The position numbers were made by a program, and so were the translations under genes. The notes below the pieces were generated by a model, which was not told the DNA's origin, did not search any database, and saw only the letters and a list, made by a program, of their open reading frames with translations. Shown piece by piece: positions 1,978-14,054 of a DNA stretch of 21,464 nt (position 1 is its first letter; every line of letters begins with the position of its first letter). The DNA is from a virus: positions 1 to 21,464 of the IMG/VR virus record IMGVR_UViG_3300025085_000234. One strand, written 5' to 3'.

Positions 1978-2285
1978 ATATTGAAAAACAGATTAAAGAT
2001 TTAACCGATGCAATGATCCGATTAACAGAGGTTATGGAAGTAAAACGGGAAGGTAATTCTATAACTGTTTCTGTACCTAAACCTGATCCTGAGGATCCTT
2101 TTGATGAAAGTAATCATACAGTTATTACAGCATCTCATGTTAAAGAATTAGCAAAAGAAAAAATGAGATCGGGAATTGATCGTAAAACTATCAAGGATAT
2201 GGTAACTAAATTGAAGGCAGATTCAATAGCCGATCTTGATTCTGAGGGTCTTAAGACTCTACATAAACAACTGGGGAAACTATGA
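1974..2285 (+). CDS. Small acidic/basic helical protein upstream of the DUF2800 nuclease
   Basis: A 103-aa protein with ribosome site AAGGAG before the ATG. Residues 1-25 are a predicted helix, residues 34-52 are Pro/Asp-rich (PKPDPEDPFDE), and residues 55-103 are helical and Lys-rich (VKELAKEKMRSGIDRKTIK). No known motif is seen. The stop codon interlocks with the DUF2800 start (ATGA), so the two are translated together and it may be a partner of that nuclease or of the SSB. Confidence 0.65.
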   Translation: MNIEKQIKDLTDAMIRLTEVMEVKREGNSITVSVPKPDPEDPFDESNHTVITASHVKELAKEKMRSGIDRKTIKDMVTKLKADSIADLDSEGLKTLHKQLGKL

Positions 2286-3406
2286 TTGCACATGCTAAAC
2301 TCTCTGCAAGTGGATCGAGTCGGTGGCTTAATTGCCCCGGCTCAGTTCATGCAGAATCAATATATCCTTCTGATGGAGAAGGATCCGAATTTGCTATTGA
2401 AGGTTCTATGGCTCATGAATTAGCCGATTTATGTTTAAAGAAGAACAGAGATGCTGATTGGTATTTAGGCAAAATTGTTTATAAAAGAACAGTAGAAAAA
2501 GAGATGGTAGAGTATGTTCAGGAGTACGTAGATTATGTTAGAAGCTTCGAAAATAGATTTACCACTCTATATACTGAAGAGCGAGTAAGCTTTGCTCATT
2601 TAGTACCTGATGGGTTTGGTACATTAGACGCAGCAGTTGTAGATTCTGATAAAGGCATTTGTCATATATTTGATTTGAAATATGGTAAGGGTATAAGAGT
2701 AGATGCATTTGAAAATACTCAAGCACAATTGTATGCAACAGGTATGGAAAATGATTTAGCATTCCTACATGATATAAAAACCTTTAGATTACATATTGTT
2801 CAACCTCGTTTATTCCATTTTTCTGAATGGGATATATCAAAAGAGGATTTATTATTATTTGGTAAGTATGTAACGGAAAGAGCTCAATTAGCATTAAGCC
2901 CTGATGCTCAAAGAATACCAGGTAAAAAACAATGCCAATGGTGTAAAGCCAAAGGTGATTGTAAAGCATTATTAGATTTTACTACTGCTACCATAACTGC
3001 CGAATTTGATGACTTAGAGAGCATCGATGTGGAAACATTAAGTGAAGATGAAAAGAAGTCCATACTGGACAATAAAGGCCTTTTCGTATCATTTTTAAAT
3101 GCAGTAGAAGCTTCCATATTTAATCAATTAGGTACAGGTAAAGAATTCCCAGGTTACAAACTAGTAGAGGGAAGAGCAATAAGGAAATGGAATTCCTCTG
3201 CAGAAAAAGCATTAATAGACAAATTAGGAGAAGATGCTTATCTTAAACGTATGATAGGTATAACTGAAGCAGAGAAAAGATTAGGTAAAGATTTCACTAA
3301 GGATCTAACCGATAAACCACAAGGTAAAACTGTATTAGCGCCTTTAAGTGATAAAAGACAAGCTTTAGATATACAAAGTGTAGAAGAGATATTTGATGAA
3401 ATATAA
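2282..3406 (+). CDS. DUF2800 RecB/Cas4-like Fe-S nuclease
   Basis: This 374-aa protein matches the DUF2800 family, a PD-(D/E)XK nuclease group related to RecB and Cas4. Visible motifs: H45 in the first helix (EGSMAHELAD), G-T-L-D116, the core D131-L-K133 strand, and Q147-x3-Y151. Four cysteines that can hold an iron-sulphur cluster are present: C18 (RWLNCPG) and C218, C221, C227 (CQWCKAKGDC), as in AddB and Cas4. The likely role is a DNA exonuclease that makes single strands for phage recombination or replication. In many phages it stands directly before DUF2815, exactly as here, so the pair probably acts as an exonuclease plus ssDNA-binding module. The nuclease activity is inferred from motifs. 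Confidence 0.88.
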   Translation: MIAHAKLSASGSSRWLNCPGSVHAESIYPSDGEGSEFAIEGSMAHELADLCLKKNRDADWYLGKIVYKRTVEKEMVEYVQEYVDYVRSFENRFTTLYTEERVSFAHLVPDGFGTLDAAVVDSDKGICHIFDLKYGKGIRVDAFENTQAQLYATGMENDLAFLHDIKTFRLHIVQPRLFHFSEWDISKEDLLLFGKYVTERAQLALSPDAQRIPGKKQCQWCKAKGDCKALLDFTTATITAEFDDLESIDVETLSEDEKKSILDNKGLFVSFLNAVEASIFNQLGTGKEFPGYKLVEGRAIRKWNSSAEKALIDKLGEDAYLKRMIGITEAEKRLGKDFTKDLTDKPQGKTVLAPLSDKRQALDIQSVEEIFDEI

Positions 3407-3435
3407 TTTATTATTTGTCAATTATATGATATACT
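3399..3435 (+). promoter_or_regulatory. Promoter for the ssDNA-binding protein unit (family copy)
   Basis: AAATATAATTTATT (3399-3412) ends in TTTATT as -35, then a 17-base spacer, then TATACT (3430-3435) preceded by TGA (3427-3429), an extended -10. It matches the other four promoters in layout and in the AAATATA block (about 11 of 14 bases). It overlaps the last codons of the DUF2800 gene. Predicted transcript start is near 3441, so the RNA carries the hairpin and ribozyme that follow. Confidence 0.6.
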
Positions 3436-3489: not shown

Positions 3490-3502
3490 GTCTTATTAGT
3501 AA

Positions 3503-3588
3503 GACGAAAAGAGCCCTCAGCCTCCACAAGTACGAGGGCTCTTCATCCAGGATTGGTAACCTGGGTCTGATGAGTCAGCCAAACCAAT
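3503..3588 (+). ncRNA. Type II hammerhead self-cleaving ribozyme
   Basis: All hammerhead core elements are present in type II order. GAAA at 3506-3509 opens stem III (3509-3518 with 3534-3543, ten pairs including the required A15.1-U16.1). The cleavage nucleotide is C3544. Stem I is 3545-3551 with 3560-3566 (seven pairs, one G-U). CTGATGA follows at 3567-3573. Stem II is G574-C505, T575-A504, C576-G503, including the required G10.1-C11.1 pair. Loop I ATTGGT (3552-3557) is complementary to ACCAAT (3583-3588), a six-pair pseudoknot of the kind described in bacterial and phage hammerheads. Predicted cleavage is between 3544 and 3545, about 70 bases before the SSB start. Stem II is short, and GTCTTA/TAAGAC (3490-3505) forms a competing hairpin that may make folding switchable. 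Confidence 0.85.
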
Positions 3589-3614: not shown

Positions 3615-4115
3615 ATGAGTAAAATGATGTTAAAAAATGTTCGTCTATCTTTCCCTTCTATCTTCCGCAAAGCAGAATTTGATGGAAACGAAGGTAAATT
3701 TGAAGGAACCTTTCTAATTGATAAAAAAGACAAAAAGACTAAAGCAATGCTCGATGAAGCAATCGATAAAGCTGTTGCTGAAGCTAAAGTTAGTATCCCA
3801 TCGGATAAGCGTTGCTTAAAAGATGGCGATGATTCTCAATATGATGGGTACGCCGACCATTGGTCTTTAAAAGCTGCAAGTTCTAAAAGACCAACGGTAA
3901 TCGATAGAGATAAAACACCTTTAGTCGAAGAAGATGAAAGAATTTACCCAGGCTGTTATGTAAATGCTATTATCGATCTTTGGATCCAAAATAATAAATA
4001 TGGAAAACGTGTAAATGCAAATTTATATGGAGTTCAATTTGTTAAAGATGGAGAATCATGGGGTATGGGACAAATCGATGTCTCTGATGACTTCTCTGAT
4101 TTAGACGATCTATGA
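3615..4115 (+). CDS. DUF2815 single-stranded-DNA-binding protein
   Basis: A 166-aa protein of the DUF2815 family, which is regarded as phage ssDNA-binding/OB-fold protein. Typical features are the opening LKNVRLSFPSIFRKAEF, the FEGTFLIDKKDKKT strand region (about 32-47), and the motif YPGCYVNAIIDLWIQNNKYGKRVNANLYGVQF (115-146; quoted here only by its ends in the family sense). It ends in an acidic tail (DDFSDLDDL), as SSBs do to recruit partners. The ribosome site AAGGAG lies 6 bases before the ATG. It sits between the nuclease and the polymerase, has its own promoter and ribozyme leader, and a terminator begins right after it, which suits a protein needed in large amounts. Its stop interlocks with the polymerase start. 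Confidence 0.85.
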   Translation: MSKMMLKNVRLSFPSIFRKAEFDGNEGKFEGTFLIDKKDKKTKAMLDEAIDKAVAEAKVSIPSDKRCLKDGDDSQYDGYADHWSLKAASSKRPTVIDRDKTPLVEEDERIYPGCYVNAIIDLWIQNNKYGKRVNANLYGVQFVKDGESWGMGQIDVSDDFSDLDDL

Positions 4116-5926
4116 TTAACTACGAAGCCCCTTCGGGGGCTTTTATCGTTCTTGATTGTGAAGTATATCCCAATTATTTCTTAGCAGCATTTAAAAATAT
4201 TGAAAATCAAAATGTTGTAACCATAGAATCTAAAGGTGAAGACCAAGGATTAACTAAAGAGCAAATAAATAAGCTTTATAGTATTATCATTAAGAAAACA
4301 ACTTTTGGATTCAATAGCAACAAATATGACATCCCTATCATACTATTTGCTTTAACTGGTAGGCCTTGTAAAGATATTCATAAATTGTCAGATAGAATAA
4401 TTAATGAGAATATACCAGGATGGAAATCGTTAAAAGATTTTAATTTATTCCTACCTAAAAATATGTCTCATTTTGATATATCTGAACCAGCACCAGGTGT
4501 AAGAGTCAGCCTCAAATTATATGGTGGAAGATTACATTCTAAAAGGCTTCAAGATTTACCTATAGAGCCAGGTACAATGCTAACAGAAAAAGAGATGGAA
4601 GATACTCTAACCTATTGTATAAATGATTTAGATACAACTATAGACTTATATAAAAAGATTGAAGATAGGATTAAACTTCGATATGAAATGTCTAATCAAT
4701 ATGGTTTAGATTTAAGATCTAAATCTGATGCACAAATAGCAGAAGCTGTTATTAAGTCCGTGCTTAGTAAAAAAATGTTAAACAAAAGAATTAATAGACC
4801 CCGAATAGAAAGTTCCACTACATTCAAATATGAAATCCCTAGCTATATTAAGTTTGATAGTAAAGAATTAAATGAAGCTTTAGAATTTATTCGTAATCAT
4901 AGATTTGAATTAGATGGTAAGGGGTCAATACAACTACCTAAAGAATTAAAATCTATGAAGATTAATCTTGGTAAATCAACTTATCAATTAGGTATAGGTG
5001 GAATTCATTCTACTGAAAAAAAGCAAACGATTATACCTAAACCGGGAACAATATTGTGTGAAAGAGATGTAGTATCTTATTACCCTGCTATAATACTTAA
5101 TTTAGGATTATACCCCCGGCATTTGGGTAATAAATTTTTAGAAGTTTATAAAGGGATTGTGGATAGGAGAATTGAAGCAAAAAAGTCCGGTAATAAGTTA
5201 ATAAATGATTCATTAAAAGTTGTAATAAATGGGTCTTTTGGTAAATTAGGATCCAAATATTCAGTTTTATATTCCCCTGATTTAATGATGGCCGTAACAT
5301 TAACAGGCCAATTAGCTTTATTAATGCTAATTGAAAAATTAGAACAAAAAGGGATAAATGTTATTTCCGCAAATACGGATGGATTTGTATCTATTTTAGA
5401 CAAAGATAAGTATGAAGATTTCGATGATATGTGTTTTTGTTGGGAAATAGATACAGGATTTGAATTAGAAGAAACAAGATATCAAGCTTTATATTCCCGA
5501 GATGTTAATAATTATTTAGCTGTTACTGAAAAAGGAGTTAAAGGTAAAGGTATTTTCACTATAAATCAAATTAGCAAAAATCCTACTGCTACAATATGTG
5601 TAAATGCAGCAATGGATTATCTGACTAAGAATAAACCCATAGATGAAACTATTAAATCCTGTAAAGATATTAAGGAATTCCTAACTGTTAGATCCGTTAC
5701 AGGTGGAGCAGTTTGGGGTGATGATTATTTAGGAAGAGTCGTGAGATGGATATATTCAAATAAAGGTCAACAAATTAGCTATAAGAAAAATGGTAATAAA
5801 GTACCTAAGTCTGATAACTCTAGACCCATTATGGAATTAGAAGAATTTCCTAATGATATTGATTACGATCGCTATATAAATGAATCAAAACAGATTTTAG
5901 AAGATATTGGTTATTCTGAGATTTAA
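4112..5926 (+). CDS. Family B DNA polymerase with 3'-5' exonuclease
   Basis: A compact 604-aa replicative polymerase. Exonuclease motifs: Exo I D15-C-E17, Exo II N68...D73 (GFNSNKYD), Exo III Y168-x3-D172. Polymerase motifs: A at D319-VV-S322-YYP (family B DxxSLYPSII), B at K369-VVI-N373-GSFG, and C at A-N421-T-D423-G. Motif C has Asn where most family B enzymes have the first Asp of DTD; similar NTDG forms occur in phage enzymes, so this is probably not inactivating. The start is interlocked with the DUF2815 stop (ATGA) and has no ribosome site of its own, so translation depends on coupling. A terminator hairpin lies in codons 5-11. The enzyme is shorter than cellular PolB (about 780 aa or more), lacking an N-terminal domain. 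Confidence 0.93.
   Translation: MINYEAPSGAFIVLDCEVYPNYFLAAFKNIENQNVVTIESKGEDQGLTKEQINKLYSIIIKKTTFGFNSNKYDIPIILFALTGRPCKDIHKLSDRIINENIPGWKSLKDFNLFLPKNMSHFDISEPAPGVRVSLKLYGGRLHSKRLQDLPIEPGTMLTEKEMEDTLTYCINDLDTTIDLYKKIEDRIKLRYEMSNQYGLDLRSKSDAQIAEAVIKSVLSKKMLNKRINRPRIESSTTFKYEIPSYIKFDSKELNEALEFIRNHRFELDGKGSIQLPKELKSMKINLGKSTYQLGIGGIHSTEKKQTIIPKPGTILCERDVVSYYPAIILNLGLYPRHLGNKFLEVYKGIVDRRIEAKKSGNKLINDSLKVVINGSFGKLGSKYSVLYSPDLMMAVTLTGQLALLMLIEKLEQKGINVISANTDGFVSILDKDKYEDFDDMCFCWEIDTGFELEETRYQALYSRDVNNYLAVTEKGVKGKGIFTINQISKNPTATICVNAAMDYLTKNKPIDETIKSCKDIKEFLTVRSVTGGAVWGDDYLGRVVRWIYSNKGQQISYKKNGNKVPKSDNSRPIMELEEFPNDIDYDRYINESKQILEDIGYSEI
4125..4144 (+). terminator. Intrinsic terminator inside the start of the polymerase gene
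   Basis: AAGCCCC (4125-4131), TTCG loop (4132-4135), GGGGCTT (4136-4142) with TTTT at 4141-4144: a seven-pair stem, five of them GC, with a C(UUCG)G tetraloop and a short U-run. It lies 9 bases after the DUF2815 stop but is read as codons E-A-P-S-G-A-F of the polymerase. It should end part of the SSB transcripts and attenuate polymerase expression. Translating ribosomes entering the polymerase frame would disrupt it, which offers coupling-dependent read-through. Confidence 0.7.
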
Positions 5927-6392: not shown

Positions 6393-6680
6393 ATGGCAAT
6401 AGAAGAAACGTTAAAATCACGAAAAGGTAGATATGGTAGAGCTACAGATAATGCTCTAGTATCACAATCATTAATGGATGTGGTAAGACACAATGGTCCT
6501 TCATTTAAAGAATGGAGTGATTTGCATAAGATGATTGTTCAAATGATATTCAGTAAAATTTCTAGAATGGCATGTGGTGATCCGGATTATGTTGACAACA
6601 TACATGATGTTATAGGTTATGCAAAGCTATTAGAAAATTATTTAATCGATAAAGAAAAAGGAGTACCTCATGATAATTGA
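6393..6680 (+). CDS. Small conserved phage protein (DUF6378-like)
   Basis: A 95-aa helical protein. The ATG at 6393 (MAIEETLKSRKGRYG) is preferred over an in-frame TTG at 6381, because GGAG lies 6 bases before the ATG. The pattern RKGRYG, then ...WSDLHKMIVQMIFSKISRMACGDPDYVDNIHDVIGYAKLL (described by its ends) resembles the DUF6378 group of phage proteins of unknown function that often sit among nucleotide and replication genes. No catalytic residues are known. It overlaps the methyltransferase start by 11 bases. Confidence 0.65.
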   Translation: MAIEETLKSRKGRYGRATDNALVSQSLMDVVRHNGPSFKEWSDLHKMIVQMIFSKISRMACGDPDYVDNIHDVIGYAKLLENYLIDKEKGVPHDN

Positions 6681-7536
6681 TAAAGAAACATTAGGCCCTA
6701 AGCCTATATTAGCAAAAGGAAAATATCCTGATAATTTTTACAGCAAAGAAAATTATTGTGCCCCAGAAGTATGGTTAGGGGTATTAGAAGGAGAAAACGG
6801 GGAAAGACTTAATAAAAATGTTAGAAATAAATATTACCCCAAAGTTAATAGTAAACATATTGCTAAAACTCCTTTACATGCTATAAGATGGGCAATACAA
6901 GAATATACCGAAGAAGGTGATACTATTCTGGATCCTTTTGCTGGCTCAGGTACTACTGCCGTAGAAGCTTTTGCACAAAATAGGAATTTTATAGGAATAG
7001 AATATGAATTCTTTGATGAAGTATTAGCTCCTACATTAAAACCTTTTGCAGAAAATGACAGCAATTTGTACATGATTATGCAGGGAGATGCAGAACAAAA
7101 ATTAAAAGTTGTTCAAGATGAGAGTTGTGCTTTAGTTAATTTTTCAAACCCTTATCCTGATGGAGGGGACCATACCAAAGGTATAGGTGCTGATAATAAA
7201 CTGGAATATAAAAAGAAAGGCAATTCGGGCTTAATGAAATCTAACCAACAATATTGGGATAAGATGAAAGCTATTCAGGATCTATCTTGTAAAAAACTAA
7301 TTAAAGGTGGATTTGCTATTTTTGTTATTAAAGATATGATGAAAAATAAAGAGGTATATCAACTTCACAAAAAATTAGCAGATCTAATGCCTGATTATAT
7401 GGAGCATATAGGTACTGTAGCTTTAGACCATTATCCCCGGTCTTTATTTATGAATACCTACGAAAAGTTTTATGGGGTTAGACCCCCATTAGAGCAAGTA
7501 TGCCCAATTTTTAGGAAGATACGAAGTGCAAGCTAG
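6670..7536 (+). CDS. DNA methyltransferase (N6-adenine/N4-cytosine type)
   Basis: A 288-aa SAM-dependent methyltransferase. Motif X-like H-I-A-K-T-P-L (63-69) leads into motif I D-P-F-A-G-S-G-T-T (88-96), with acidic E111 closing the SAM pocket. Motif IV is F-S-N-P-Y-P (158-163), a variant of the [DNS]PP[YFW] signature that flips the target base. The order X-I-IV differs from the common beta class, in which IV comes before DPFxGSGTT. The S-N-P-Y form lacks the first Pro, so target choice (A or C) is open. No cognate restriction enzyme is next to it, so it is an orphan phage methylase, plausibly protecting phage DNA. It overlaps the next gene by 11 bases. Confidence 0.8.
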   Translation: MIIDKETLGPKPILAKGKYPDNFYSKENYCAPEVWLGVLEGENGERLNKNVRNKYYPKVNSKHIAKTPLHAIRWAIQEYTEEGDTILDPFAGSGTTAVEAFAQNRNFIGIEYEFFDEVLAPTLKPFAENDSNLYMIMQGDAEQKLKVVQDESCALVNFSNPYPDGGDHTKGIGADNKLEYKKKGNSGLMKSNQQYWDKMKAIQDLSCKKLIKGGFAIFVIKDMMKNKEVYQLHKKLADLMPDYMEHIGTVALDHYPRSLFMNTYEKFYGVRPPLEQVCPIFRKIRSAS

Positions 7537-8266
7537 GGGTATATCACTTAAACATGCAATCTTTAATTCGAGATATGCATTAAAAAGTATGGGTGAAGAA
7601 GTTCAAACTAAAAATTGGCAAGGGGATAAATCGCCTTTTAGTTTTATTGAGCTTTTAAATCTAACTTTAGAAGCACCATTGGCTCAAACTGAAAAAGAAG
7701 CTAGAGAAGAATGCAACCCATTTTGGCCTTGGGCAGATGAACATTTCGAGGAAAGAGTGAGTGGCATACCTTACAATCCTCCGCCAAGTCATACAAAATG
7801 GCTTAAAAAAACGGAGGAATATCTAGAAACGGACTCCAAATTTAGCCATACGTATCCCGAACGCATGTGGTCCAAGGGTTTACATAGGGCCATACGGCAT
7901 GAAATTGGGGATCTAAATGATGCGGTAGAATTATTAAAACAAGACCTCTATACCCGTCAATGTTATATACCTATTTATTTTCCAGAAGATTTATCAGCTG
8001 CAAGACAAAATAAAAGGATACCTTGTACATTGGGATGGCATATAATAGTAAGGGATAATCGTATTAACGTACATTATCCAATGAGGTCTTGTGATGCAAT
8101 AAGACATTTCCATAATGATTTATATTTTGCGAATAGATTAGCTTTATGGATTGAATCAAAATTAGATGTTGAATTGGAGATGGGATCGATCCTATTTTCT
8201 GCTACTTCTTTTCATTGCTTTACTAACGACCTATATGCTTTAAACAAATTAATCGAGAAAGGATAA
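7526..8266 (+). CDS. Thymidylate-synthase-family enzyme with dCMP-type specificity (putative dCMP hydroxymethylase)
   Basis: A 246-aa ThyA-fold protein. Catalytic C167 lies in I-P-C-T-L-G; the dUMP/dCMP phosphate arginines are R144 (YTRQCY) and R187-S-C-D190, exactly 20 residues after the Cys as in E. coli ThyA (C146 to R166). Eleven residues after R187 comes D198, where ThyA has N177. Asp at this site is the mark of T4-type dCMP hydroxymethylase (D179), and the Asn-to-Asp change is known to turn ThyA toward dCMP. The residue after the catalytic Cys is Thr, not the usual His. Start is GTG at 7526 with AGGAAG upstream, within the methyltransferase end. Product could be 5-hydroxymethyl- or 5-methyl-dCMP. 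Flanked by methylase, AsnB-like protein and dCMP deaminase. Confidence 0.7.
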   Translation: MQARGISLKHAIFNSRYALKSMGEEVQTKNWQGDKSPFSFIELLNLTLEAPLAQTEKEAREECNPFWPWADEHFEERVSGIPYNPPPSHTKWLKKTEEYLETDSKFSHTYPERMWSKGLHRAIRHEIGDLNDAVELLKQDLYTRQCYIPIYFPEDLSAARQNKRIPCTLGWHIIVRDNRINVHYPMRSCDAIRHFHNDLYFANRLALWIESKLDVELEMGSILFSATSFHCFTNDLYALNKLIEKG

Positions 8267-8349
8267 TGGACCAATTCATTTGGGATTTACTTAAGCTTCT
8301 CGTCGCTTGTATCATCATTGCTGAAATACTTTACCGGAAGGAGAAATAA
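8266..8349 (+). CDS. 27-aa single-pass membrane micro-protein
   Basis: A tiny frame coupled to the ThyA-like gene (TAATG) and ending 1 base before the AsnB-like ATG, so it fills the gap exactly. The product has an amphipathic start (MDQFIWDLL), a hydrophobic core (KLLVACIIIAEIL) and a basic end (YRKEK): a one-pass inner-membrane peptide, N-terminus out or in unknown. Its last codons carry the ribosome site (GGAGG-like AAGGAG) of the next gene, so it may in part serve as a translated leader. Confidence 0.5.
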   Translation: MDQFIWDLLKLLVACIIIAEILYRKEK

Positions 8350-8350
8350 A

Positions 8351-9691
8351 ATGTGTGGATTTTTAATATATAAAACAGAAAAAAGATTAGGGAATTTAAA
8401 AGTAGAAGAATTAAAGAATAGTCTTTCCCATAGAGGTATTGATATTTCTGTTCATAATGAACCAGGTGCATTTGTTATACATAACATGTTACCTATGACA
8501 AACTTAGTAGATTATAAACAACCTTTAATAAATCCCTACAAATGGAAGGGGATGATAGGTGCATTTACTGGGGAGATATTTAATTGGAAACAAATAAAAG
8601 AAAAATATGATTTAGATTGTAATAATGATTCTGAATTATTTGCAGATATTATGTATGGGCAAAAATCAAAAGAAAAAGTTCATGAAATGGATGGGTTTTG
8701 GAATTTCGGAGCTATACACAATGATAATATAGTAGGGGTGGTAGATTATTTATCTCAAAAACCTTTGTATTATAGAACAGATATGGAAGCACTTTGTTCA
8801 GAGCCTTATCCTTTAACTATGTTAGGTCCTGTAACAAAAGATAATATATTCTTTTCATCTATACCTAAATTTGGATATGATACTGAGGGTAATACCCCTT
8901 GGAATGAAATTAAACAAATCCCAGCTGGATCCTATTATGAGAATGGTAAAATTCATAAATATTGGAATTGGAATTTAGTAGAAGATGTACCTTTAAGAGC
9001 AGGTATATCCCGATCAGTTAGTGCAAGAATGGGAGGGGAAAGAGCCCCTGCAATTCTTTTATCTGGGGGGTTGGATAGTGCAATAATTTATCATTATGCT
9101 AAAAAAATAAATCCAGATATAAAAGTATTCCATATAGAAAATAGAGAAAATAAATATATTCAACTTCTAACTAAGAAATATGAAAAAATTAATTTATCAG
9201 ATTATACAATTAGTACAGAAGAAGCTATAAGAAGGAATCAAACCCCAGTAGATTTAGGTAGTGTACTACCCCAGGCACAATTAGCTGAGGCATTAAAAGA
9301 TAAAGGTATTCATGTAGTTTTATCTGGTGATGGATCCGATGAATTATTTTCAGGTTATGATAGAAATCTTTATTATGATAGTCAACATTCTGATATATTC
9401 CAAGAATTACCTTATTATCATAATCCAAGATTAGATCGTATTATGATGGGGTCCGTTGTAGAGCTTAGAGCCCCTTTTATGGCATCATATATAGTTAAAT
9501 ATGCTTTATCTTTAGATTTTGAAGCAAGAAGATATAAAAAGATTTTAAAAGAATTATATAAACATGCCCTTCCTACAGGTATTATATTAAGAGAAAAATT
9601 GGCTTTAAAATCAGAAAAAATAAGAAAGAAAAAGCAAAGAGATAATACTATAGAAAATATAAAGATATTTGAAAAATTATTTAGCCTATGA
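8351..9691 (+). CDS. Asparagine synthetase B-like glutamine amidotransferase
   Basis: A 446-aa protein (start at the ATG that puts C2 after Met; an in-frame ATA/ATG further upstream would bury it). The N-terminal class II glutaminase has C2, S-H-R28-G and G-E-I-F-N. E. coli N74 of the oxyanion hole is Thr here (T73), which may weaken glutamine use. The C-terminal synthetase domain has the ATP pyrophosphatase loop S238-GG-L-D-S, then S-G-D-G-S-D-E-L-F-S-G-Y (325-336) and the L-R-A-P-F substrate-site strand. It is shorter than E. coli AsnB (about 554 aa). It could make Asn for phage protein synthesis or amidate another acid, possibly a modified nucleotide given its ThyA-like and deaminase neighbours; the second is speculation. 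Confidence 0.85.
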   Translation: MCGFLIYKTEKRLGNLKVEELKNSLSHRGIDISVHNEPGAFVIHNMLPMTNLVDYKQPLINPYKWKGMIGAFTGEIFNWKQIKEKYDLDCNNDSELFADIMYGQKSKEKVHEMDGFWNFGAIHNDNIVGVVDYLSQKPLYYRTDMEALCSEPYPLTMLGPVTKDNIFFSSIPKFGYDTEGNTPWNEIKQIPAGSYYENGKIHKYWNWNLVEDVPLRAGISRSVSARMGGERAPAILLSGGLDSAIIYHYAKKINPDIKVFHIENRENKYIQLLTKKYEKINLSDYTISTEEAIRRNQTPVDLGSVLPQAQLAEALKDKGIHVVLSGDGSDELFSGYDRNLYYDSQHSDIFQELPYYHNPRLDRIMMGSVVELRAPFMASYIVKYALSLDFEARRYKKILKELYKHALPTGIILREKLALKSEKIRKKKQRDNTIENIKIFEKLFSL

Positions 9692-12822: not shown

Positions 12823-13030
12823 AAAAAATGGACAAATACATGTTCCGATACAAAATACTAATGAAAGTCATTTAGTAGGAGTAGCAGGGATAGCTTTAAT
12901 ACTACACCAACTTCAAGATTTAAAAGATGATGAATTAAGGAATCATCTTATAGAAGCTGCTCAAGAATTATGTGACGAAATAATGGCTGAGCAGGCCTTT
13001 AATCTTTCGGAGATAAATAATAATGTATAA
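12809..13030 (+). CDS. Hypothetical helical protein
   Basis: A 73-aa protein; the ATG at 12809 is preferred over that at 12803 because AGAGG then sits at normal distance. Residues 23-62 are a predicted pair of amphipathic helices (GVAGIALILHQLQDL, then HLIEAAQELCDEIM). No family recognised. It overlaps the preceding gene by 14 bases and the next (lipoprotein) by 8. Confidence 0.55.
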   Translation: MTQNKKNGQIHVPIQNTNESHLVGVAGIALILHQLQDLKDDELRNHLIEAAQELCDEIMAEQAFNLSEINNNV

Positions 13031-13190
13031 ATATTTTTGTTGGACTGTAATCTTTAGCATACTTTCCTATATAGCTATAGGTATACTATTAGTAAGTTTC
13101 CTATCAGGTTGCTCTGGATTTGATAGGATCCAATGCCAAGATTCCGATTCCGTTTATTGTGAAGGAGTAGTATCCCATGCAATACTATGA
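13023..13190 (+). CDS. Small predicted lipoprotein
   Basis: A 55-aa frame read from an ATG overlapping the preceding stop. It has a hydrophobic segment (about residues 8-27, TVIFSILSYIAIGILLVSFL) ending in the lipobox L-S-G-C30, so signal peptidase II would leave a mature 26-residue lipid-anchored peptide with two more cysteines (C38, C46) that could form a disulphide. Phage lipoproteins of this size include outer-membrane spanin subunits and superinfection-exclusion proteins. It is not in the lysis module and has no Pro-rich Rz1 tail, so exclusion is somewhat more likely; this is inference. Confidence 0.6.
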   Translation: MYKYFCWTVIFSILSYIAIGILLVSFLSGCSGFDRIQCQDSDSVYCEGVVSHAIL

Positions 13191-13485
13191 ATTAATGGGT
13201 AAAGGATGGAAATCACCTAGAACCTTTACTATTGAACAAATTTTTAAACTTGCTGAAAAGAAAGGTATAAAGCTAAATAAGTGGGATCTAAAAAGGCATT
13301 TATTAGTCGGTACTCGTAATATAGACGTACTTTTAGATAAAGACAATAAATCCTATGAGTGGAGACGTGAACGTTTAAATACGGACAAATACAAGCTCCA
13401 TTTAAAGGTCCTAGCTGATAAAAAACGGATGAAAGATAGAAATTTCTATGATAAGTACTCTAGATTAGCTTTATCAACGATTTAA
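13177..13485 (+). CDS. Hypothetical basic protein, last gene of the rightward block
   Basis: A 102-aa strongly basic protein (Lys/Arg-rich, for example KKRMKDRNFYDK). The first half (FTIEQIFKLAEKKGIKL) could be a DNA-binding helix pair, but no family is certain. Ribosome site GAAGGAG lies 9 bases before the ATG, inside the lipoprotein gene. The stop codon TAA interlocks with the stop of the convergent DUF1353 gene, so there is no room for a terminator between them. Confidence 0.6.
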   Translation: MQYYELMGKGWKSPRTFTIEQIFKLAEKKGIKLNKWDLKRHLLVGTRNIDVLLDKDNKSYEWRRERLNTDKYKLHLKVLADKKRMKDRNFYDKYSRLALSTI

Positions 13486-14054
13486 TCACTCCAATGGATA
13501 TTTGCTTTCCGATGCTTATTCCAAGCTGCAAAGCCACCTAACCTCAATCCATAATAAGCTAAGTAGTTAATTAATCTAAACCCATTTTGAATTATATTTA
13601 TATCTCTAAAAATAATATCTAATTCTTTTTGGGTTTTAATTCCTATAGAATCTTGCTTACTAAGCTTTAATAGAGTAGCATGTTTGTAACCATAATCATG
13701 AACTAATCCCCCAACCAATAATACTCCCATTGGGGATAACCAAGTATGTAAGAATTTAGGAACAGATGCTCCATCAAAAACAAATCCCTTGGGGATGACT
13801 AATTTTTCACCATCAATCTCATAATGATAGTCTTCAGATATTTCCCATTTTCTAGATACGAATAACCATACTTTAATACCACCCCAAAAGCCTTTACCTT
13901 TGGTTGGAATGGGAATGGGTTTCATGTGAGGCATACTAATAGCTTTAAATTCCATATTAGGTTTTACATCTTTATCTAAAATTTTCCAGATAAATCCTAT
14001 CCAAACTAATGCTATCACGATACTGAATTGCCAAAATTGTAAAATTATTTCCAT
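13482..14054 (-). CDS. DUF1353 protein with N-terminal membrane anchor
   Basis: A 190-aa protein, last gene of the leftward block. Residues 8-26 are a membrane helix, followed by W-K-I-L-D-K-D. The DUF1353 domain (about residues 75-170) shows the family core I-P-K-G-F-V-F-D-G-A-S-V-P and G-L-V-H-D-Y-G-Y. DUF1353 proteins are common in the lysis/tail end of phage genomes; a peptidase-like or wall-linked role has been suggested but is not proven. The WKILDKD segment is near-identical at DNA level to the end of the small holin-like gene at 14503, which suggests a shared membrane anchor by duplication. Confidence 0.75.
   Translation of the reverse strand: MEIILQFWQFSIVIALVWIGFIWKILDKDVKPNMEFKAISMPHMKPIPIPTKGKGFWGGIKVWLFVSRKWEISEDYHYEIDGEKLVIPKGFVFDGASVPKFLHTWLSPMGVLLVGGLVHDYGYKHATLLKLSKQDSIGIKTQKELDIIFRDINIIQNGFRLINYLAYYGLRLGGFAAWNKHRKANIHWSD

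Follow-up and report, generated by a model that had tools for sequence, protein, structure and literature searches.

In the phage species analyzed here, the intrinsic terminator predicted behind the gene of the single-stranded DNA-binding protein (SSB) is written into the first codons of the following gene, polB, which encodes a family B DNA polymerase. We consider it probable that this hairpin is ssb's own terminator, a signal that varies between lineages yet is widely kept, and that in this species polB now reads through it. The DNA analyzed, hereafter the window, is a whole stretch of viral sequence whose features around the ssb-polB junction are collected in Table 1.

Table 1. Features of the window at and upstream of the ssb-polB junction
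Feature	Position	Strand	Description
Source window			21,464 bases; IMG/VR virus record
Type II hammerhead ribozyme	3502..3584	+	ssb leader; Rfam RF02276, 46.7 bits (gathering 37)
ssb Shine-Dalgarno			AAGGAG; -8.7 kcal/mol
ssb	3615..4115	+	Enc34-type ssDNA-binding protein, PF10991, 166 aa; Pfam 125.6 bits; phrog_112
ATGA overlap	4112..4115	+	PolB ATG 4112-4114; SSB stop TGA 4113-4115
polB	4112..5926	+	family B DNA polymerase, 604 aa; phrog_1252, 657.7 bits; PDB and Foldseek matches
Predicted intrinsic terminator	4124..4144	+	stem GAAGCCCC/GGGGCUUU, 7-8 bp; cUUCGg tetraloop; T-run TTTTATCGTTC to ~4151

Results

A predicted terminator in the first codons of polB

The two arms of the stem, AAGCCCC and GGGGCTT, occupy positions 4125-4131 and 4136-4142 on either side of a TTCG loop (4132-4135), and an additional G-U pair between 4124 and 4143 is possible at the base. 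The hairpin starts 9 nt after the SSB stop (8 nt when the G-U pair is counted) and about 13 nt from the A of the PolB ATG, and it is followed by TTTTATCG, a T-run that is moderate and short (four T, then ATCG). With its 7-8 pairs, five of them G-C, and its short UUCG loop, the stem has the make-up of an intrinsic terminator. The same bases are read in the PolB frame as GAA GCC CCT TCG GGG GCT TTT, that is, residues E5 to F11. The initial annotation had described a hairpin 9 bases past the SSB stop that encodes PolB residues 5-11 and thus has to satisfy coding and termination at once; position and frame are as it claimed, and the signal qualifies as a terminator by its sequence.

The PolB frame is open from the ATG at 4112 through the stem, and the ssb stop of this lineage is TGA. 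polB is devoid of a Shine-Dalgarno sequence (+0.5 kcal/mol, against -8.7 kcal/mol for ssb), and with the 4-nt ATGA overlap the two genes have the characteristics of an ATGA re-initiation pair. Moreover, the next in-frame ATG, GTG or TTG after 4112 is codon 92, which lies beyond D15 and E17, so that the ATGA at the SSB stop is the only usable PolB start among these codons. The earlier statement that PolB lacks a ribosome site of its own and is tied to the ATGA is therefore borne out. A frameshift fusion of SSB and PolB was also considered and rejected: the PolB frame is closed by a TGA at 4097-4099, and no slippery heptamer was seen by eye.

In Foldseek, the PolB model (pLDDT 87.3) was matched to family B polymerases (E 4e-14), which places the protein in this family; no Pfam match was obtained at 0.001, and no kin were confirmed in a search of 84,980 prokaryote genomes. 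Homologous PolBs begin near residue 10 of the window's protein (e.g. MKNFVVLD, MNNFIVLD), and the first invariant columns in 23 PolBs are D15 and E17, which we take to be residues of the exonuclease motif. In the AlphaFold2 model residues 1-10 are disordered, with a mean pLDDT of 46 that is also depressed by the shallow alignment at these residues, and the first strand starts from residue 11. The peptide EAPSGA is unique to the window's lineage. Judging from the sequences and the model, the residues encoded by the stem look like a by-product of the terminator, tolerated as a tail.

The 18-mer hairpin folds at -12.1 kcal/mol (z = -2.9), and 3 of 200 dinucleotide shuffles were as stable. Its d-score, computed with a formula from the literature, is 17.9 (4124-4144), a value that no other site on either strand of the whole window reaches. 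When the first 13 codons (MINYEAPSGAFIV) were recoded synonymously, 298 of 20,000 versions matched the G-C pair and stem pair counts (1.5%) and 332 of 4,000 were equally stable by folding energy (8%). This modest result arises because the codons for Ala-Pro-Ser-Gly-Ala favor the stem. The hairpin thus exceeds what the amino acids alone would lead one to expect, which is unusual, but not decisive; the strong evidence for a terminator comes from the comparison with relatives.

The hairpin is widespread, and untranslated, in relatives

From all fetched loci in which an SSB match and a readable stop were present, we removed junctions more than 95% identical to an earlier one, which left 35. The d-score was above 0 at 20 of these 35 distinct ssb 3' junctions. 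As a control, 289 stretches of the same length were taken from positions downstream within the loci, some of them from near-identical contigs, and none scored above 0. A simpler score, requiring a strong stem with four or more T among the 8 bases that follow, was reached at 24 of the 35 junctions (counting L013, in which the T-content is weak); one junction was weak and ten had no such signal. Many ssb junctions carry T-runs of 5-7 T in 8.

Among the loci whose SSBs are 74-82% identical to that of the window (L015-L025), the stems (AGGGGC/GCCCCT, AGGGCG/CGCCCT, GGGGTC/GGCCCC etc.) are unlike the window's in sequence, yet paired; because the arms differ in this way, MAFFT aligns the junction hairpins badly. 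The hairpins of the close relatives mostly lie 4-6 nt past the ssb stop, and the PolB ATG comes after them, as in CCCCTTTTCTATTATGAATAATTTTGTCGTC (M-N-N-F-V-V), so that the hairpin is not translated and the layout of the window is not found there. At the position of the window's ATGA most close relatives read CTATAA or CTATAG, with a separate ATG further on. These paired, untranslated hairpins led us to reject a chance or protein-driven origin of the window's hairpin. Homologues that kept the amino acids EAPSGAF and lost the pairing, the outcome that had been named beforehand as speaking against a terminator, were not seen: the pairing is kept, and EAPSGA occurs in this lineage only.

The terminator is not indispensable, since the d-score is 0 or less at 15 of the 35 junctions and the sites of L013 and L014, which are among the closest relatives of the window, are poor. 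In the hairpin and d-score scan of the ssb junctions, a good terminator was missing in L013, L014, L019 and L007, all fairly close; L019 has the stem without the T-run.

Several junctions are organized differently. In L014 about 320 nt (4502-4821), apparently with small ORFs inside, separate ssb and polB instead of a terminator. In L007 (2980-3000) the PolB start lies inside the end of ssb, without hairpin or terminator, which by its sequence is a separate compaction of the same ssb-polB junction. L029, L033 and L044 have a long hairpin right after the ssb stop, without a T-run and with polB not immediately next; these are perhaps processing or 3'-guard hairpins.

The terminator's exact 20-mer was counted in at least 119 viral contig stretches. 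Among the matches listed there were 80 loci, all of which were used, and 70 copies, the window's and 69 others, had sufficient flank. Only in the window, among these listed matches, does an ORF of more than 210 aa that has no later start for 86 codons contain the 20-mer within its first five codons. Six other copies among them lie inside ORFs of 100 aa or more, four of which have another start 8-15 codons past the hairpin; the ORFs around the remaining two copies, in L131 and L153, measure 101 and 125 aa.

Loss of the polB start codon

In the window, GGGGCTTTT passes directly into ATCGTTCTTGAT (F-I-V-L-D), with the T-run directly against the conserved Phe-Ile-Val-Leu-Asp codons. The relatives have PolB's own ATG and its surrounding bases between the T-run and the Phe-Ile/Val-Val-Leu-Asp codons; in the window these bases are missing. 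With its own ATG lost, the PolB frame reaches back through the hairpin to the ATG at the SSB stop. The most economical route for this loss would be a deletion between T-runs. The lost ATG, like the hairpin, the frame and the layout of the relatives, is read in the sequences themselves.

Apart from the window itself, four contigs have the overlap between terminator and polB, and it was seen nowhere else. They belong to the same species as the window, from which they differ at 3, 18, 19 and 26 positions elsewhere (over 5.5-8.6 kb). An assembly error is ruled out, as all four carry the identical junction. The junction shows no variants among the five contigs, a sample without power for a selection test. 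In the tree, L013 and then L014 stand beside the window, both with their own PolB ATG, and L007 is placed further off than these two.

A hammerhead ribozyme ahead of ssb

The type II hammerhead of the ssb leader has the CUGANGA and GAAA core, closed stems I and III and an open stem II; core and stems are present in relatives too. Its expected cut would fall between C3544 and A3545, 70 nt upstream of the ssb ATG. A search pattern composed of GAAA, stem III, UH, stem I and CUGANGA was found once each in 13 of the 15 clade loci, some of which are near-duplicates, always just before ssb, with stem III sequences that are quite different yet paired. In the two remaining loci stem III is shorter: 5 bp in L021 and, as judged by eye, still less in L007. 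A set of 80 unrelated viral loci (1,475,496 nt, both strands) and one of 19 distant relatives (298,330 nt) did not contain the pattern. At Rfam's own thresholds the window alone is called; in a laxer search L014 stands exactly at the gathering score.

UGGC/GCCA, as for a pseudoknot between loop I and the 3' tail, is present by eye in most of the clade ribozymes. Type II hammerheads with such a pseudoknot were described by Perreault et al. (2011), who suggest that phage transcripts are cut into single-gene mRNAs and who report, in haloviruses, one located 13 nt upstream of a helicase gene (PMC3088659). The terms "ssb" and "single-strand" are absent from the main text of that article.

The gene upstream of ssb encodes a DUF2800 protein (2282-3406; PF10926), and its phrog_69 label is exonuclease. 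An extended -10-like element, TGATATACT, lies at 3427-3435, before the ribozyme; TGATATAAT or TGATATACT is similarly found in L013, L017, L018 and L019. L022, L024 and L025 seem to have no -10-like element, and in them the ribozyme directly follows the previous ORF.

Discussion

How would such a terminator act? From the arrangement described above we infer termination and its efficiency, coupling to translation, and re-initiation. Most ssb transcripts would end at about 4145-4150, which would yield abundant SSB mRNA, and the fraction that reads through would carry polB, with ribosomes re-initiating at the ATGA to make PolB. That the terminator sets SSB above the polymerase, as had been proposed, is plausible and would be a sensible outcome of a signal of this kind.

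A ribosome finishing SSB close behind the RNA polymerase would be expected to hinder the folding of the hairpin. Indeed, Li et al. (2015) found in E. coli that termination at tR2 dropped from about 90% to less than 10% when the terminator stood 5 bp past a stop, and that uncoupling translation restored it; this strong stop-proximal repression is due to the ribosome finishing the upstream gene (PMC4824070). Their spacer series differ, with about 0.8 at 18 bp in one series and about 0.12 at 17 bp in another. At 8-9 nt past the SSB stop the hairpin is in the repressed zone, and read-through should therefore rise with tightly coupled SSB translation. Coupling of transcription and translation in the host is an assumption here. 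The nearest cultured phages by SSB are from Pseudoalteromonas (60% and 59%), a likeness that suggests a gammaproteobacterial host.

The ribosome in the PolB frame would have little weight for termination. All terminated ssb mRNAs, moreover, would carry the PolB ATG without an in-frame stop, and re-initiation there would lead to a non-stop complex, a cost left unmentioned in the initial annotation. In the E. coli study, termination at tR2 fell by only about 10% when an ORF began 30 bp upstream of the terminator, as the new ribosome arrives too late, and this ORF, with its non-stop mRNA, about halved the expression of the upstream gene (PMC4824070). Frequent termination together with common re-initiation would cost much through non-stop complexes, and one of the two may thus be weak.

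Other explanations of the junction have to be weighed against a terminator of ssb that polB reads through. That the hairpin is a mere by-product of Ala-Pro-Ser-Gly-Ala with no RNA role seems to us scarcely credible: these codons do favor the stem and some synonymous versions reach it, but the peptide is lineage-unique and disordered in the model, the relatives have their terminator in the same place outside any translated frame, and the same 20-mer recurs as a stock terminator of viruses. It is also very improbable that PolB starts at a non-standard codon past the hairpin (e.g. ATC at 4145) and that nothing is overprinted. The homologues do begin at this very point; however, ATC and ATT start codons are very rare, the ATG at 4112 is in frame and open through the stem, and the ssb stop has turned into TGA. 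The hairpin could instead be mainly a 3'-end guard or processing site, with weak termination, a similar level of polB transcript, and low PolB owing to poor initiation alone. The short T-run, the missing PolB Shine-Dalgarno sequence and the long post-ssb hairpins of L029, L033 and L044 that have no T-run would all fit; we nevertheless hold this to be unlikely in view of the T-runs at most junctions, many of them with 5-7 T in 8, and of the window's site outscoring all others there.

The mechanism proposed in the initial annotation was a translation-dependent attenuator, in which the hairpin is opened by ribosomes that enter the PolB frame at the ATGA, so that polB transcription hinges on re-initiation. 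Its terminator, the dual use of the bases and the ATGA as sole start all stand, and the ATGA overlap, the lack of a Shine-Dalgarno sequence and the hairpin so close to the A of the ATG agree with it. The PolB-frame ribosome as the switch is not supported: the terminator is kept in relatives where it is not translated, the comparable ORF in E. coli has the small effect given above, and re-initiation would, by an argument of the same study, be slower than the polymerase clearing the T-run (PMC4824070). We thus regard this mechanism as distinctly unlikely.

A broader scheme joins the terminator of ssb to the hammerhead, and we offer it as a doubtful, if possible, extension. In this phage clade ssb might be a self-delimited RNA cassette, its leader cut by the hammerhead 70 nt before ssb to leave a 5'-hydroxyl and its end made by the stop-hugging terminator. 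SSB translation would then set the frequency of polymerase mRNA. In the window's species, where the terminator would have been driven into the polymerase frame, terminated mRNAs, being non-stop for the polymerase ORF, would be a built-in cost or a control via ribosome rescue. The conserved hammerhead gives the ssb leader an experimental interest of its own.

None of the three elements, intrinsic terminator, stop-proximal repression and ATGA re-initiation, is new in itself. With Rho-independent C(UUCG)G terminators the window shares the GC stem, the stable tetraloop, the T-run and the position a few nt past a stop, but here the stem doubles as codons 5-11 of the next gene, which has no alternative start for 86 codons. 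Stop-proximal terminators repressed by ribosomes (the tR2 W28p construct, and the pyrBI attenuator as cited in PMC4824070) have the same position a few nt after a well-translated ORF. ATGA termination-reinitiation overlaps have the same 4-nt overlap and a downstream gene without a Shine-Dalgarno sequence; unlike them, the window has a strong hairpin that begins some 13 nt inside the second gene, and its terminated transcripts would be non-stop for that gene. A literature search by title and abstract returned no case of a phage terminator overlapping the start of a downstream gene.

The junction is a natural example of a gene gaining codons from its neighbor's terminator after the loss of a start codon, and relatives still show what is probably the ancestral layout. 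The trade-off between compact genome, termination and non-stop mRNA can be tested on one short fragment. We see in the overprinted terminator a real, neat and mostly understandable product of a compact phage genome.

Elsewhere, the window contains no tRNA; an asparagine-synthase-like amidotransferase gene (8318-9691) lies beside a thymidylate-synthase-like (7526-8266) and a DNA methylase-like gene (6670-7536). Both the GC skew and the coding strand change at 13030-13500, with rightward genes before this point and leftward genes after it.
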